This document shows positions 1-28,582 of a stretch of 64,000 nucleotides of DNA, in pieces. Under the pieces are notes generated by a model, which searched no databases, was not told where the DNA came from, and worked only from the letters and a program-made list of their open reading frames with translations. The stretch is from Streptomyces vietnamensis (GTDB lineage: Bacteria > Actinomycetota > Actinomycetes > Streptomycetales > Streptomycetaceae), in assembly GCF_000830005.1 (NCBI RefSeq), contig NZ_CP010407.1, forward strand, positions 6,770,001-6,834,000. The letters run 5' to 3'. The position numbers and the translations under genes are program-made. Position 1 is the stretch's first letter. Each line of letters opens with the position of its first letter.

Positions 1-951
1 GGCGCCGACCCCCTGGTCCATCTGGCCCTGTTCCACAAGCCCCCGCTGCGCTCGGGGCTGATGACCCTGCTGAGCCAGAACCTCATCCTGCTGGGGCTGT
101 TCTTCACCATCCCGCTCTATCTGCAGGTGGTGCAGGGGCTCGACGCCTTCGAGACGGGACTGCGGCTGCTGCCGGTCTCCGTCACCATGCTCGCGGCCTC
201 CCTTGGCGCGGCGAAGCTCGGACGCAGGCTGGGACCGAAGCGGATCGTACGGATGGCCCTGGTGCTGCTCCTCGCCGCCATCGCCTGGCTCCTCGGCACC
301 ATCGACCCGGTCATCGACGACAGCCAGTTCTTCGCGGCCATGGCGCTCCTCGGCCTGGGCATGGGGCTGCTCGCCTCGCAGCTCGGCAACGTCGTCCAGT
401 CCAGCGTCGGGGAGCGGGAGCGCAGCGAGGTCGGCGGTCTGCAGTTCACCGCCCAGAACCTGGGGTCCGCGCTGGGCACGGCCCTCATCGGGTCCCTGCT
501 GATCGGGGCCCTGGCCCAGGCCTTCACCACCCGGGTGGAGGACGACCCGAGGCTTTCGGACGAGGCGCGCCTGCAGACGAGCGTCGCACTGGAGGCCGGG
601 ATCAGCTTCGTCCCCACCGACCAGGTCCGTGCGGCGGCGGAGGACGCGGGACTTCCGCCCCAGGAGGTGGACGCCGTCACCGACTCGTACGCCTCGGCCC
701 AGCTGGCCGGCCTCAAGGCGGCCATCCTCGCGACCGGGGGCATCACCCTGGCGAGCTTCCTGGTGACGCGCGGCCTCCCCGGTGCGGGCGGGGCCACCGG
801 TGCGGAAGGGGCCACGGGCGCAAATGGGGTCGCTGGTACGGGTGGGGACACCGGTACGGGCGGGGCCGCGGCGGACGGCCCCGCGGGTGCGGGCCGCCGC
901 CGCGACACCGAAGGTCCCGCGCCGTCGGAGCCCGGTTCCGAGGGCCCCTGA
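1..951 (+). CDS. MFS drug exporter, C-terminal part (5' end outside window)
   Basis: The reading frame is open from the first base, so this is the last 316 residues of a longer transporter. About six hydrophobic helices are visible (for example LILLGLFFTIPLYL and AMALLGLGMGLLAS), spaced like the second half of a DHA2-type 14-helix exporter of the major facilitator superfamily, which expels drugs using the proton gradient. After the last helix, from about base 780, comes a roughly 55-residue tail made almost only of Gly, Ala, Thr and Val, ending in an Arg-rich patch. The tail is low-complexity and atypical for the family. The family call rests on helix pattern and composition; the substrate cannot be inferred. 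Confidence 0.8.
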   Translation, partial: GADPLVHLALFHKPPLRSGLMTLLSQNLILLGLFFTIPLYLQVVQGLDAFETGLRLLPVSVTMLAASLGAAKLGRRLGPKRIVRMALVLLLAAIAWLLGTIDPVIDDSQFFAAMALLGLGMGLLASQLGNVVQSSVGERERSEVGGLQFTAQNLGSALGTALIGSLLIGALAQAFTTRVEDDPRLSDEARLQTSVALEAGISFVPTDQVRAAAEDAGLPPQEVDAVTDSYASAQLAGLKAAILATGGITLASFLVTRGLPGAGGATGAEGATGANGVAGTGGDTGTGGAAADGPAGAGRRRDTEGPAPSEPGSEGP

Positions 952-23611: not shown

Positions 23612-23639
23612 TTGCGGTGCTTCCGGTTGGTGCTAGGGT
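23612..23639 (+). promoter_or_regulatory. promoter of the methionine-leader operon
   Basis: TTGCGG (23612-23617) and TAGGGT (23634-23639) are separated by 16 nt and match the Streptomyces vegetative pattern TTGACR-TAGRRT well in the -10 box. The expected transcription start, about 7 nt after the -10 box, falls on or within a base or two of the leader ATG at 23647, so the leader peptide would be translated from a leaderless mRNA. Confidence 0.65.
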
Positions 23640-23646
23640 CCCGTCC

Positions 23647-23712
23647 ATGCAGCGCACCACCACCCTCGCCATGATGCGAATGATGCCCCGAACTTCGGAG
23701 GCGCTTCGCTAG
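23647..23712 (+). CDS. methionine-rich leader peptide (attenuator control peptide)
   Basis: A 21-codon frame reads MQRTTTLAMMRMMPRTSEAL plus R and ends TAG. Codons 9, 10, 12 and 13 are AUG, so five successive codons hold four methionines, a density far above chance in this high-GC sequence. No Shine-Dalgarno precedes it, consistent with leaderless initiation at the predicted transcription start. It is followed 26 nt later by a strong intrinsic terminator and then by a SAM/methionine-related operon. Ribosome stalling at the AUG run when charged Met-tRNA is scarce would switch the downstream RNA fold. Being short, it rests on composition and context rather than homology. Confidence 0.75.
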   Translation: MQRTTTLAMMRMMPRTSEALR

Positions 23713-23750
23713 CGAAGCCGTGCGCGCACAGGATTGCGACGGACCCTCCG
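23696..23750 (+). promoter_or_regulatory. candidate antiterminator pairing of the attenuator
   Basis: CGGAGG at 23696-23701, within leader codons 17-19, is complementary to CCTCCG at 23745-23750, the top of the terminator's left arm. A ribosome halted on the AUG run (23671-23685) would leave 23696-23701 free to pair and block the terminator; a ribosome reaching the stop codon at 23710 would cover it and allow termination. A palindrome at 23703-23718 (GCTTCGCTAGCGAAGC) overlapping the stop could act as a pause hairpin. Confidence 0.6.
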
Positions 23751-23771
23751 GAAACGGAGGGTCCGTTTTTT
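23739..23771 (+). terminator. intrinsic terminator of the methionine attenuator
   Basis: Arms at 23739-23750 and 23755-23766 pair perfectly over 12 bp around a GAAA tetraloop, followed by six T residues (23766-23771) and a further TTT. A canonical factor-independent terminator with a T-run is rare in Streptomyces and here precedes, rather than follows, a gene cluster by 50 nt, which marks it as an attenuator. Confidence 0.85.
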
Positions 23772-23821
23772 GTTTCCCCCGACTTCTTTTCCCCAGCTCG
23801 ACAGAAGGCGAAGAACCCGCC

Positions 23822-24658
23822 ATGACCCGTCTACCGGTCGTCTCCCTCACCGACTGCGCCGATGCCAACGCACTGGCCCGGCAGTCCACCCGTATCGCCA
23901 CCCTCTTCGGCGCCACGCCGACCGTTCTGCCGCTGACGGGACCGGACCCGGAGGGCGCCGCCGCCCTCACCCTGCTCGACCTGCTGCGCTCCACGGACCT
24001 GATCGGCGGGCCGACGCAGCCGGTGGTGGTCCTGGTCAACATCGCCCCGAGGGACGGGCACTGGCCCAACGGCGTGCCGTTCTGCTGGTTCCGGCACGGG
24101 GAGCACCTGGTCATCAGCACGCTGAACCACCGGGTCCTCGCCCCGCTGGCGGCCTACCTGGGCGTCACCGAGGTCCACGTCACCGACGTCCGCGAGGTGC
24201 TGGAGGCCGCTGCCGCCGGATGGGCCGAGCTGGCGCCGGCCGAGATCGAGGAGATGGTGCGGACCCAGTTCCGCAGCCTGTGGTACGTGCCCCTGCTCGC
24301 CCGCTGGCTCGCGGACGGCCACGAGGTGCCCGCGCGGCCGCAGGCGGTCCAGCCGCCCGTCGCACGCGAGGTGCGGGTCGCGGTCGTGGACAACTTCGGC
24401 AACTGCAAGCTGGACCTGCCGGCCGTCGAACTGCCCGGCTACGACGGCGAGAAGGGGCTGCTCGTGCACAACCGGCACGAGGGCCGCGACGTCGAGGTGC
24501 GATGTTACGACCGGCTCCCCGACGTCCCTTACGGCGAGCCCGGAATCACCGTCGGAAGCTCCGGTGTCGGCTTCGCCGAACTGGTGATCCGCGGCGGTTC
24601 CGCGGCCGACGTGTTCGGTCTGCACCAGGGCGACCAGGTGTTCGATCTCACCAGCTGA
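23822..24658 (+). CDS. SAM hydroxide adenosyltransferase-like protein (DUF62 family)
   Basis: The 278-residue protein has the two-domain outline of DUF62 enzymes, which use a water-derived hydroxide (or halide) to split S-adenosylmethionine into adenosine and methionine. The C-terminal beta domain opens with VAVVDNFGNCKLDLP, matching the family's D-x-FGN motif; the N-terminal part starts VVSLTDCADANA (family TDFG/TD region) and has VVVLVNIAPRDGHWPNGVPFC in place of the usual VVDPGVG segment, so it is a divergent member. Start ATG 23822 follows GAAGGCGAAG. It lies directly under the methionine attenuator and ahead of an amino-acid importer, which supports a methionine-releasing role (inference). 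Confidence 0.65.
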   Translation: MTRLPVVSLTDCADANALARQSTRIATLFGATPTVLPLTGPDPEGAAALTLLDLLRSTDLIGGPTQPVVVLVNIAPRDGHWPNGVPFCWFRHGEHLVISTLNHRVLAPLAAYLGVTEVHVTDVREVLEAAAAGWAELAPAEIEEMVRTQFRSLWYVPLLARWLADGHEVPARPQAVQPPVAREVRVAVVDNFGNCKLDLPAVELPGYDGEKGLLVHNRHEGRDVEVRCYDRLPDVPYGEPGITVGSSGVGFAELVIRGGSAADVFGLHQGDQVFDLTS

Positions 24659-24707: not shown

Positions 24708-25589
24708 ATGTCCCGTACCCGGATAGCCGTCGCGGCCTCCGCCGCCGCCACCGCCGTCGTCCTGGCCGCGGCCGGCTGCGCGCCCCAGCCCCAGAGCACC
24801 ACCCCCGGCGCGGCCGGTTCCGCCAAGGCCGCCGACTGCACGACCGGCAGCCCGAGCCTCCACAAGCCCGGCCAGCTGACCGTCGCGACGGATTCCCCCG
24901 CCTACGAGCCGTGGTTCGACAGCAACACCCCGTCCAACGGCAAGGGCTTCGAGAGCGCGGTGGCCTACGCGGTGGCCGGCAAGCTGGGCTTCGCGAAGGA
25001 CCAGGTGAAGTGGGTCGTCGAGCCCTTCGCGCACTCCTACGCCCCCGGCGCGAAGTCCTACGACTTCGACATCAACCAGATCTCCATCACCCCGCAGCGC
25101 GCCAAGGCCGTCGATTTCTCCGGCAGCTACTACACGGCCAGCCAGGCCGTCCTGACGCTGAAGGACTCGAAGTTCGCCGACGCCACGTCCCTGAGCGCCT
25201 TCAAGGGCGCCAAGATCGGCGTGCAGGTCGCCACGACCAGCTACCAGGCCGTGCTCGACCAGCTCAAGCCCGCGCAGAAGCCGAGCGTCTTCAACACCAC
25301 CAAGGACGAGGTCACCGCGCTGACGAACGGTCAGATCGACGCGATCGTCACCGATCTGCCCACCGTGTTCTACCTGGCCGGCGCGGAGCTCGACAACGGC
25401 AAGATCGTCGGCCAGTTCGGCTACGCGGGCGGCACCCCCGAGGAGTTCGGCCTGCTGCTGCCGAAGAACAGCGGCTACACCTCCTGCGTGGACAAGGCCC
25501 TGAGCGCCCTCAAGGCCGACGGAACCATCGCCAGGCTGACCAAGCAGTGGCTGTCCGCGTCGGCGAACGTCCCCGAGCTGAAGCAGTAA
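24708..25589 (+). CDS. amino-acid ABC transporter substrate-binding lipoprotein (family 3)
   Basis: The 293-residue binding protein has a lipoprotein signal peptide with cleavage before Cys in AAAGCAP (about residue 24) and a family-3 (PAAT) fold: LTVATDSPAYEPWFD at the first lobe, DFDINQISITPQRAKAVDFS, and SAFKGAKIGVQVATTSYQAV in the second lobe. In this class the ligand is a polar amino acid, an opine or a related compound. The Met attenuator upstream suggests methionine or a methionine derivative as the ligand; this is inference. RBS GAAGGA precedes the ATG. Confidence 0.88.
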   Translation: MSRTRIAVAASAAATAVVLAAAGCAPQPQSTTPGAAGSAKAADCTTGSPSLHKPGQLTVATDSPAYEPWFDSNTPSNGKGFESAVAYAVAGKLGFAKDQVKWVVEPFAHSYAPGAKSYDFDINQISITPQRAKAVDFSGSYYTASQAVLTLKDSKFADATSLSAFKGAKIGVQVATTSYQAVLDQLKPAQKPSVFNTTKDEVTALTNGQIDAIVTDLPTVFYLAGAELDNGKIVGQFGYAGGTPEEFGLLLPKNSGYTSCVDKALSALKADGTIARLTKQWLSASANVPELKQ

Positions 25590-25600
25590 CGGGCCCGACC

Positions 25601-26491
25601 GTGGAACTCACGAAAACCGCCGTGTCGCCGGCACCGGACGACGACACCCACCGGCCCAGCGAGCACGAGCTGGAGCGGCGGCGCTTCCGCCGCTCCCGCC
25701 GGCGCCGCCACACCTGGATCTCCGCCCTGTGCACCGTCCTGGCCCTGGTGGCACTGGGCGCGGGGGCGGTCGCCTCGCCGGGCTGGGAGCGGGTCCACAG
25801 CCTGTTCCTTGACGGCGCCGAGCTGCGGGCCGCGTTCCCCGAACTCCTCAAGGGCTTCTGGCTCAACATCCAGATGTTCCTCGTCGCCGAGGTGCTGATC
25901 CTCGTCCTGGGGCTGCTGATCGCCCTGGTGCGGGTGACCCGCGCGCCGGGCCTGCAGCCGCTGCGGCTCGCCGCGACCGTCTACGTGGACGTCTTCCGCG
26001 GGGTGCCGACCCTGCTGCTCGTCTTCCTCGTCGGCTTCGGCCTGCCGGCCCTGCAGCTGCAGGGCACCCCCTCCCAGCCCTGGGTGCTCGGCGTGATCGC
26101 CCTGGTCCTCTCCTACGCCGCCTACGTCGGCGAGGTGTTCCGGGCGGGACTGAACTCGGTGCACCCCGCGCAGCGCAACGCCGCCCGGGCCCTCGGGCTC
26201 AACCAGCGCCAGACGCTGCGGCACGTGGTGCTGCCGCAGGCGGTGCGCAACGTCGTCCCGCCCCTGCTCAACGACTTCATCGCGCTGCAGAAGGACACCG
26301 CGCTGGTCGCCGTCCTCGGCCCGCTGGAGGCGCTGCGCGCCGCGCAGATCAAGGCCGACTACGACTTCAACTACACCCCCTACCTGGGAGCGGCTCTCTT
26401 GTTCATCGCGGTGACCATTCCGCTGACCCGCTTCGCCGACCGGCTCCAGCGGCGGGCCGCGGAGCGCACCTGGGCGGGGGCGGTCCGATGA
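25601..26491 (+). CDS. amino-acid ABC transporter permease
   Basis: The 296-residue permease begins at GTG 25601, 11 nt after the binding-protein stop; GTG 25622 is a close alternative. After an Arg-rich cytoplasmic N-terminus come about five helices, with the HEQRGVP-type region VFRGVPTLLLVF and the EAA coupling loop (NAARALGLNQRQTLRHVVLPQA). These place it in the HisM/GlnP-type polar amino-acid group. A single permease gene implies a homodimer. The ATPase gene follows with an ATGA overlap. Confidence 0.9.
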   Translation: MELTKTAVSPAPDDDTHRPSEHELERRRFRRSRRRRHTWISALCTVLALVALGAGAVASPGWERVHSLFLDGAELRAAFPELLKGFWLNIQMFLVAEVLILVLGLLIALVRVTRAPGLQPLRLAATVYVDVFRGVPTLLLVFLVGFGLPALQLQGTPSQPWVLGVIALVLSYAAYVGEVFRAGLNSVHPAQRNAARALGLNQRQTLRHVVLPQAVRNVVPPLLNDFIALQKDTALVAVLGPLEALRAAQIKADYDFNYTPYLGAALLFIAVTIPLTRFADRLQRRAAERTWAGAVR

Positions 26492-27231
26492 GCCGGCCGC
26501 TGCTGCGCATCCGCGGACTCCGCAAGCAGTACGGCTCGCGCCCGGTGCTGCGCTCGATCGACCTGGACGTCGCCGAGCACCAGGTCGTCTGCCTCATCGG
26601 CGGCTCCGGCTCGGGCAAGTCCACCCTGCTGCGGTGCGTGGACCTGCTGGAGGTCGTCGACGACGGCACCGTGCACCTGGGCGACAGCGAACTGACCGAC
26701 CCCCGCCTGGACCCCGACGTGGCCCGCAGGCGGATCGGCATCGTCTTCCAGGCCTACAACCTGTTCCCGCACCTGAGCGTGCTGGACAACATCACGCTCG
26801 CGCCCCGCCAGGTCCACGGCGTGCCCCGCAAGCAGGCCGAGGCACGGGCCCTGGAGCTGCTGGACCGGCTCGGCCTGGCCGACAAGGCGCGCGAGCACCC
26901 CGACCGGCTCTCGGGCGGGCAGCAGCAGCGCGCCGCGATCGCCCGCGCCCTGGCCACCGAACCGGAGCTGCTGCTCTTCGACGAGATCACCTCGGCCCTC
27001 GACCCCGAGCTGGTCGGCGAGGTCCTGGACGTCGTCGCGGACCTCAAGCAGCGCGGCCTGACCATCCTGATGGCCACACACGAGATGGACTTCGCCCGGC
27101 ATGTCGCGGACCGGGTCTGTTTCCTGGAGGACGGCGTGATCGTGGAGCAGGGCACCGCGGAGCAGGTGCTGACGGCCCCGCGGGAGGCGGCCACCCGGCG
27201 CTTCCTCGCCCGCGCCCTCGACCGCTCCTAG
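26488..27231 (+). CDS. amino-acid ABC transporter ATP-binding protein
   Basis: The 247-residue ATPase has Walker A (GGSGSGKSTLLR), Q-loop (VFQAYNLFPHLS), signature (LSGGQQQRAAIARAL), Walker B (LLLFDEITSALD) and switch His (MATHEMDFA). The Walker B region carries EIT where EPT is usual. It completes a binding protein-permease-ATPase importer transcribed from the attenuator-controlled promoter at 23612. No clear terminator follows; a weak GGTTCC/GGAACC pair lies in the 91-bp gap before the next gene. Confidence 0.92.
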   Translation: MSRPLLRIRGLRKQYGSRPVLRSIDLDVAEHQVVCLIGGSGSGKSTLLRCVDLLEVVDDGTVHLGDSELTDPRLDPDVARRRIGIVFQAYNLFPHLSVLDNITLAPRQVHGVPRKQAEARALELLDRLGLADKAREHPDRLSGGQQQRAAIARALATEPELLLFDEITSALDPELVGEVLDVVADLKQRGLTILMATHEMDFARHVADRVCFLEDGVIVEQGTAEQVLTAPREAATRRFLARALDRS

Positions 27232-27322
27232 GGCCGGTTCCTCCGGATCGCCACGAGGGGCGGAACCCTCCAGACTCGACCCGGCGCTGTGCGGGACGGC
27301 GGGAGATGAGAGGGTCTTGCGG

Positions 27323-28582
27323 GTGAGCGAGACACCGACGAACACCCTGCAATACCGTGTCGACGGGCGCGAGGACGCCCCGGTCCTGGTCCTGGGACCG
27401 TCCCTCGGTACGACCTTCCACATGTGGGACCGGCAGATACCGGAGCTCACCCGTGACCGGAGGGTCGTCCGCTTCGACCTCCCGGGGCACGGGGGCGCGC
27501 CCGCGGAGCCCTTCAGCTCCGTGGCCGAGCTCGGCGACCGGCTCCTCGCCACGCTCGACGCGCTCGGCGTCCAGCGCTTCGGCTACGCCGGCTGCTCCCT
27601 CGGCGGAGCCGTCGGCCTCGACCTCGTCCTCCGCGCGCCGCACCGGGTCGCCTCCCTCGCCCTGGTCGCCACCTCGCCCCGGTTCGGCACCGCCGACGAG
27701 TTCCGCCAGCGGGGCGTCATCGTCCGCACCAACGGCCTGGAGCCGATGGCCCGCACCGCCCCCGAGCAGTGGTTCACGCCGCTCTTCGCCGGCGCGCAGC
27801 CCGCCATCGTCGACTGGGCCGTCCAGATGGTCCGTACGACCGACCCCGCCTGCTACATCGCCGCCTGCGAGGCCCTCGCCGTCTTCGACGTCCGCGAGGC
27901 CCTCGGCAGCATCGGCATCCCCGCCCTCGTCCTCGTCGGCTCCGAGGACCGGGTCACCGGCCCCGCCGAGGCCCGCACCCTGGTCGCCGGCATCGCCGAC
28001 GCCCGGCTCGCCGTCGTCCCCGGCGCCTCGCACCTCGCCCCCGTCGAGCAGCCCGCCGCCGTCACCGACCTGCTCACCGAGCACTTCTCCGGCATCGCCC
28101 CGGAGGCGAGCGGCACCCTGGCCGTGCCGCCGCCGCCCGTGCCGCCCGTTCCCGCCGCCGAGCCCGCCCCGGCCGCCCCGGAGGCCGAGCCCGCCGAGAC
28201 CGGCCGGCCCGACCCGTACGAGAAGGGGCTCGGGCTGCGCCGCGAGGTCCTCGGCGACGCCCATGTCGACCAGGCCCTCGCCGACGACCCCGACGGGGCC
28301 TTCCAGGAGCTCGTCACCCGCTACGCCTGGGGCGAGGTCTGGAGCCGCGAGGGCCTCGACCGGCGCACCCGCAGCGTCGTCACCCTCACCGCCCTCATCT
28401 CCGGCGGCCACCGGGAGGCCCTCGCCGACCACACCCGCGCCGCCCTCCGCAACGGCCTGTCGCCCGAGGAGCTCCGCGAGATCGTCCTCCACGCGGGCGT
28501 GTACTGCGGCCTCCCGGCCGCCGAGACGGCGCTGCGGGTGATCACCCGCGTCGTCACGGAGGAGACGACGCCCCCGGCGTAG
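27323..28582 (+). CDS. pcaL: PcaL: fused 3-oxoadipate enol-lactonase / carboxymuconolactone decarboxylase
   Basis: The 419-residue bifunctional enzyme joins PcaD and PcaC of the protocatechuate branch of the beta-ketoadipate pathway. Residues 1-255 are an alpha/beta hydrolase with nucleophile Ser in AGCSLGGAVG, Asp in GSEDRVTGP and His in ASHLAPVEQP. A Pro/Ala linker (about 265-295) leads to the carboxymuconolactone decarboxylase domain (about 297-415) with RSVVTLTALISGGHREAL and LREIVLHAGVYCGLPAA. GTG 27323 is chosen because GAGAGGG lies 8 nt before it; the TTG at 27317 is too close. Other pca genes, usually linked, are absent here, so the gene stands alone. Confidence 0.92.
   Translation: MSETPTNTLQYRVDGREDAPVLVLGPSLGTTFHMWDRQIPELTRDRRVVRFDLPGHGGAPAEPFSSVAELGDRLLATLDALGVQRFGYAGCSLGGAVGLDLVLRAPHRVASLALVATSPRFGTADEFRQRGVIVRTNGLEPMARTAPEQWFTPLFAGAQPAIVDWAVQMVRTTDPACYIAACEALAVFDVREALGSIGIPALVLVGSEDRVTGPAEARTLVAGIADARLAVVPGASHLAPVEQPAAVTDLLTEHFSGIAPEASGTLAVPPPPVPPVPAAEPAPAAPEAEPAETGRPDPYEKGLGLRREVLGDAHVDQALADDPDGAFQELVTRYAWGEVWSREGLDRRTRSVVTLTALISGGHREALADHTRAALRNGLSPEELREIVLHAGVYCGLPAAETALRVITRVVTEETTPPA

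Follow-up and report, generated by a model that had tools for sequence, protein, structure and literature searches.

The window, by which we mean the whole 64,000-nt stretch of Streptomyces vietnamensis DNA that was analyzed, carries on its forward strand an operon of four genes, which encode a protein of the DUF62 fold (23822..24658), a solute-binding protein of family 3 (24708..25589), an ABC permease (25601..26491), and an ABC ATPase (26488..27231). The DUF62 product has the SAM hydroxide adenosyltransferase/fluorinase fold, with a Pfam match that is confined to its C-terminal domain. A search of this protein against PDB sequences returned nothing at 1e-3; when the search was relaxed, it returned DUF62-family entries (best E=0.0036), with the alignment lying in the C-terminal part of the protein. 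By its family and fold, the protein is a candidate SAM hydrolase. The next gene downstream (27317-28582) matched the bifunctional PcaDC model NF051488 above its cut-off, and this PcaDC-like gene is probably a separate unit.

The region ahead of the DUF62 gene contains, on the same strand, a compact leader whose parts can be read directly. A putative promoter (23612..23639) combines TTGCGG (23612-23617) with the -10 box TAGGGT (23634-23639), the two being separated by 16 nt; a sigma-70 consensus scan called no promoter at the leader. An ATG at 23647, exactly 7 nt past the -10 box, opens a leaderless-type leader ORF, MQRTTTLAMMRMMPRTSEALR (23647..23712), which comprises 21 codons followed by TAG and whose frame is maintained in relatives. 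Codons 9-13 of this ORF read ATG ATG CGA ATG ATG and include the sensor core ATG-CGA-ATG-ATG (23674..23685). The antiterminator strand CGGAGG (23696..23701) starts 21 nt past the first base of the core, and an intrinsic terminator (23738..23767), which has a GAAA loop followed by a T tract, carries the complementary CCTCCG (23745-23750) in its 5' arm. The terminator lies 25 nt from the ORF stop with the 13 pairs that our scan assigned to it, or 26 nt if 12 pairs are counted. In the predicted fold, GCGCAC (23652..23657) and GTGCGC (23720..23725) form the 5' and 3' strands of a 1:2 stem. The folding energy of 23648-23772 is -62.7 kcal/mol, as compared with -41.2 +/- 3.7 kcal/mol for 200 shuffles, none of which equaled it, and the leader thus folds beyond chance. 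A sequence-only reading of this DNA had described the leader as an amino-acid attenuator, and the elements and pairings on which it built (the -10 box, the ATG, codons 9-13, CGGAGG, CCTCCG, and the terminator) all read as it had reported them.

DUF62 genes are rare: among 392 genomes from the genus, 12 have one. A first scan of genome contigs yielded 66 loci, 44 of them actinobacterial and 22 from other sources (mainly candidate-phylum MAGs). Of the 44 actinobacterial loci, 43 carry the core, TGCGAATG, within a short ORF ahead of DUF62, the sole core-less one (L058) having a partial DUF62 match; the core was absent within 500 nt upstream in all 22 non-actinobacterial loci. Another 12 full-length loci came from a profile search over the class, and the core was present in 12/12; five of their leaders duplicate sequences of the first scan, and the two scans partly overlap. 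This count covers the full-length loci and leaves aside 23 genomes whose matches in the profile search were weak only (E 5e-11 or worse). The sequence-only reading had named a lack of conservation in relatives as evidence against itself, and the relatives show the opposite. The leaders occur, with their frame maintained, in Streptomycetaceae, Actinospica, Kribbella, Jiangella, and Catellatospora. In all, 57 leaders collapsed to 50 distinct ones once seven identical sequences were merged (L009 and L086 carry the leader and lie outside the 50). The start codon, leaderless spacing, and frame are conserved in 50/50 distinct leaders, that of L037 having no in-frame stop before the terminator or the gene. 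The distance from the -10 box to the start is 7 nt in 55 of the 57 leaders (6 nt in L017 and 8 nt in L041), a figure of which only the narrowness is informative, and not the box itself, since start codons were chosen by a TANNNT box 5-9 nt away. Moreover, a terminator of 10-14 pairs is present in 50/50 leaders, and at least six T among the first eight tail bases in 46/50. Because the leaders share ancestry, the 50 are not independent, and the weight lies in the agreement between families whose leaders have otherwise diverged.

A covariance model built from the Streptomycetaceae and Actinospica leaders matched, over the 392 genomes and at E below 1e-30, the same 12 genomes that have DUF62; nearly all 12 matched leaders sat in the model, and the informative part is the absence of such matches from the remaining genomes. 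One extra match, at E=0.003 over 53 nt, is taken as chance. The S. vietnamensis genome has a single match to the core pattern TGCGAATGMTG, at this site, and a single match to its backward control. It is scarcely credible that the arrangement arose by chance or represents the ordinary terminator of an upstream gene: intrinsic terminators are common, and the pairing strength is unexceptional (see below), but the core, the frame, the spacing, and the antiterminator position are conserved over several families. The leader element is real, on evidence that is comparative and computed and in no part experimental.

The genes that accompany DUF62 are less constant. A homologue of the solute-binding protein was found in 22/43 loci, and DUF62 stands without an adjoining transporter in the two Kribbella loci examined (L036 and L038) and in Streptacidiphilus (L034). 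Operon make-up thus varies by lineage, and since the transporter is absent or replaced in some lineages while the leader stays, the leader is tied to DUF62, and tracks it rather than the transporter. In Catellatospora L041 (6003-7178), the gene behind DUF62 reads by eye as a SAM synthetase (metK). The L037 and L043 assemblies each have a split DUF62 frame, through either assembly error or decay.

Within the leader ORF, the strictest conservation falls on two codons. Codon 0 is CGA and codon +1 is ATG in all 50 distinct leaders (CGA-ATG, 23677-23682 in the window), whereas the codons on either side are ATG or CTG (48 and 2 leaders, respectively, at codon -1; 28 and 22 at codon +2); the core consensus is [A/C]TG-CGA-ATG-[A/C]TG, corresponding to the peptide [M/L]RM[M/L]. 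The run of AUG codons, which the sequence-only reading had put forward as the telling feature, varies: Kribbella has MRML, with LRML in one species, Catellatospora has LRMM, and one Jiangella leader has MMMMRML. It is CGA followed by ATG that is invariant instead. In the DUF62 genes themselves, counted over 43 loci, CGA is used for 40 of 922 arginines (4.3%). The core can pair with downstream sequence in the predicted folds, and because its predicted partners differ from family to family, pairing would not readily explain its invariance. This variability of partners also bears on a metabolite riboswitch, in which the aptamer would include UGCGAAUG and the ORF would be incidental. Such a riboswitch would account for the invariance of UGCGAAUG at the nucleotide level and for the strong folding, and it is nevertheless very improbable, given the conserved start codon, leaderless spacing, and frame, and the lack of any matching Rfam family. 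Our attempt to identify a riboswitch through Rfam 15 gave nothing relevant: there were no matches in the window at the gathering score, and at E<=5 the leader matched only a flavivirus element (E=1.9).

To evaluate the switch computationally, we folded the RNA up to the end of the terminator 5' arm, masked through 16 nt past the first P-site base; kinetics lie outside this model. For Streptomyces, the mean capture of the terminator arm was 0.07 without a ribosome and 0.04 with a ribosome at the stop, whereas it was 0.73-0.79 with the P-site at codons -2 to +1, as compared with 0.14 at codon -3 and 0.13 at codon +2. The permissive A-site codons in this model, -1 to +2, are those of the conserved core. 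Kitasatospora and Streptacidiphilus showed the same behavior, and Actinospica agreed with Streptomyces, yet its capture was already 0.59-0.64 at earlier stalls. In Kribbella, Jiangella, and Catellatospora, capture peaked at the same codons with less sharp switching. CGA in the P-site was permissive in all groups for assumed edges of 13-18 nt, and at 12 nt it fails for Catellatospora. Two outcomes of the model tell against a clean switch, namely, (i) a capture of only 0.14, and hence no antitermination, when the first AUG of the Streptomyces run occupies the A-site and (ii) an appreciable capture without a ribosome in Jiangella (0.44) and Catellatospora (0.33), as well as with a ribosome at the stop in Jiangella (0.42).

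The antiterminator starts at core+20..23 nt in 49/50 leaders, close to the expected front edge of a ribosome held at the core. When 1000 linkers were shuffled by mononucleotide, 10.9% placed an antiterminator start at core+19..23. The strength of the CGGAGG:CCTCCG-type pairing did not exceed that of mononucleotide shuffles (fraction as good, 0.12-0.74). Since such strength is not unusual for GC-rich RNA, we dropped it as proof and rely on the antiterminator position. A strand swap between five family representatives, tried as a covariation test, did not consistently rank each leader's own pairing as best, and no claim is drawn from it. Covariation is modest: among 27 sequences, the 1:2 stem closes with A-U in 21 and with G-C in 4, and the window has the G-C version. 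The attenuator logic of the sequence-only reading is nonetheless well supported: several families share the frame, the terminator, and the antiterminator, and a modeled ribosome on the core frees the antiterminator, sharply in Streptomycetaceae and less so elsewhere. The leader has three parts of an amino-acid-type attenuator: regulatory codons at the stall site, an intrinsic terminator, and a competing antiterminator just beyond the stalled ribosome.

The sequence-only reading knew of no precedent for such a leader, but a methionine leader is on record: in the available part of its description, metL of S. lividans TK24, ahead of metNIQ, is presented as a leaderless methionine leader (PMC8079986). 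S. vietnamensis has one too. Upstream of its metN-like gene (L112; G000:C1:1655060-1656052, minus strand) lies a leader ORF, MTTTSNRTLATEANTTPGARCMCRMCAI, that contains CGA ATG, and an in-frame CGA-ATG is present in the metL-type leader of 12/12 Streptomyces metN loci (this genome and 11 others), even where the rest of the leader has diverged. A scan for a TANNNT box 6-8 nt before the starts of the metN leaders found none. Outside the genus, an Arg-Met leader was recognized by eye in 4/12 metN loci (L132, L133, L136, and L139), a count that covers L131-L142 and leaves out seven further loci (L143-L148 and unlisted ones); one of these four leaders has CGA, and the others have CGC or CGT. By eye, L132 and L133, from another actinobacterial family, carry a long Met-rich leader ORF upstream of metN in which CGC ATG replaces CGA ATG, and a second short ORF, of the type ...LRRLSHLPFHPGTR (...LRRITHLPFPPGTR in L135), stands close ahead of metN in L132, L133, L135, and L136. 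No such Met leader was found in the 450 nt ahead of the metG match or of the three metF matches in this genome, two of the metF matches sitting inside longer frames.

The products of the DUF62 operons are themselves poor in methionine. DUF62 homologues contain 22 Met in 11,362 residues (0.19%), as compared with 68 in 4,715 residues (1.44%) for 18 DUF62 homologues from outside Actinobacteria (four of the 22 loci being excluded) and with 1.24% for 350 other ORFs of the same loci. Further, we counted 6 Met in 6,200 residues of the solute-binding protein homologues, 25 in 5,836 residues of the permeases, and 42 in 4,631 residues of the ATPases; six ATPase paralogues of this genome have 3-12 Met in about 240 residues. 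In the window itself, the products of the four operon genes total 1,110 residues, of which 4 are internal Met, against the window rate of 1.2% (Poisson P 0.003). The DUF62 figure is weakened by the choice of start codon, as ORF starts that were chosen mechanically, and that run upstream of the likely start, give 0.52% Met in 40 DUF62 ORFs. A low content is also not rare, as 20.6% of 253 other ORFs longer than 200 aa have no more than 0.4% Met, and we treat the scarcity of methionine as support and not as proof.

Three lines, namely, the sensor codons, the metN parallel, and the Met-poor products, suggest that methionine shortage is the signal; a methionine response is what we infer from the codon content of the leader, from metL, and from the proteins of the operon. 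Internal Met accounts for 176/952 residues in 49 leaders (L037 excluded). Several observations weigh against a shortage signal. Some leaders have only one or two regulatory Met codons, and L045 has a single internal Met; as far as the accessible part of the theoretical treatment goes, few regulatory codons lower sensitivity (PMC1183508). The metK-like gene behind DUF62 in Catellatospora is odd for a starvation operon. Methionine shortage also starves initiation, a cost that we count against this signal.

The opposite signal is conceivable, as the tryptophan-dependent stalling of the ribosome by TnaC illustrates. Here, a nascent chain ending in Arg-Met would stall the ribosome at high methionine or SAM, so that a SAM-consuming enzyme would be induced under excess. 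Induction by excess would suit a SAM-degrading enzyme, the peptide [M/L]RM[M/L] is conserved, Catellatospora couples DUF62 with the metK-like gene, and the folding switch is identical whatever causes the stall. We consider such a ligand-sensing arrest peptide unlikely: arrest peptides usually require several tunnel contacts, whereas the residues ahead of the core differ in kind and number between leaders, and the peptide sequence does not account for the invariant CGA. The Met-poor products, moreover, suggest shortage, and metN belongs to an importer.

The strict retention of CGA, the most strictly kept codon beside ATG, raises a further alternative, namely, that the attenuator senses slow translation in general (through arginine supply, the rare CGA, translation stress, or ribosome drugs) and not methionine. 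In the accessible part of work on the Salmonella his leader, CGA stalls ribosomes strongly, is decoded less well than CGU or CGC, and is sufficient alone for de-attenuation (PMC4046918). A general sensor of this kind would give no reason for the tie to DUF62. The ATG after CGA is just as invariant, the leaders are Met-rich in Streptomyces and Jiangella, and the metN leaders offer a methionine-related parallel, and we regard the general sensor as quite improbable.

The reading that we favor, with a probability of roughly 0.7, is a ribosome-mediated transcription attenuator of the trp/his kind, with a leaderless leader peptide, that is most likely relieved by a shortage of charged elongator Met-tRNA. 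The anatomy, frame, core codons, and spacing of this attenuator are conserved, and its switch is computed. Transcription would start at or next to the AUG. When methionine is abundant, the ribosome would reach the stop and cover CGGAGG, allowing the terminator to form. With methionine short, the ribosome would wait on the core, with CGA in the P-site and AUG in the A-site, or at a neighboring codon; its front edge would then lie just ahead of CGGAGG, which would be free to pair with the terminator 5' arm, and formation of this antiterminator would let DUF62 and the importer be transcribed. Were there no translation, the 1:2 structure would sequester CGGAGG and transcription would terminate. 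Slow decoding around CGA would sharpen the response.

CGA is decoded by an inosine-bearing tRNA in Streptomyces, and a slow CGA in the P-site could make the next AUG the most sensitive step. We tentatively propose, at distinctly less than even odds, that CGA-AUG is a purpose-built methionine-sensing pair, in which the slow, inosine-decoded Arg codon in the P-site would sensitize the next AUG to the level of charged elongator Met-tRNA and so permit a response before initiation stops. The pair recurs in the DUF62 and metN leaders, and it would mark a methionine-sparing operon, in which the DUF62 enzyme returns methionine from SAM. The placement of CGA before a sensor codon is not general to all leaders here; in the leuS leader of this genome, CGC and not CGA stands ahead of the Leu codons.

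These findings would link a DUF62 subfamily to methionine supply; for at least some DUF62 enzymes, according to the accessible part of a 2025 paper, no physiological role is known (PMC12120602). They would also provide an example from nature of a regulatory stall that is tuned by codon context, since a CGA-AUG that is invariant in two kinds of methionine leader is not predicted by ordinary amino-acid attenuation.

A search of five leader peptides against NCBIfam gave no match to a named leader-peptide family at E<=10. Among the matches listed, open-licence papers yielded no description of a DUF62 leader and, as a methionine leader in Actinobacteria, only S. lividans metL. As regards its product, the window's operon encodes the fold of the SAM hydroxide adenosyltransferases described in the accessible part of PMC12120602, but its match is to the C-terminal Pfam domain only, and its activity is predicted. 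SAM riboswitches serve methionine/SAM genes; unlike them, the DUF62 leader has no relevant Rfam match. The metL leader, which belongs to a transporter operon, resembles the DUF62 leader in being a leaderless leader peptide assigned to methionine, and its counterparts in this genome and in 11 relatives carry CGA-ATG; it differs in its peptide, MSTTSDRTPATEATTTPGARCMCRRMCAF, and in the gene it precedes, and at S. lividans metL no typical terminator is described in the accessible part of the source (PMC8079986). What the two have in common is limited to the CGA-ATG Arg-Met pair and the layout of a short upstream ORF, and we do not class the DUF62 leader as a metL leader. Mycobacterial polycysteine attenuators, as far as the available text goes, likewise use a leaderless short ORF and a sulfur amino acid, but that amino acid is cysteine, and they act by translation attenuation of cysteine genes (PMC13236596). 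An actinobacterial survey from 2005, in its accessible part, reports that no RNA structure was seen to be conserved ahead of methionine operons (PMC1262725). The classical actinobacterial attenuators, as partly seen in that survey and, for ilvB1 of M. tuberculosis, in PMC13236596, share with the DUF62 leader an ORF with regulatory codons, an antiterminator, and a terminator, whereas the invariant sensor of the DUF62 leader is an Arg-Met codon pair. The class of mechanism is therefore known, and the invariant Arg-Met codon pair and the DUF62 target are, as far as could be seen, new.
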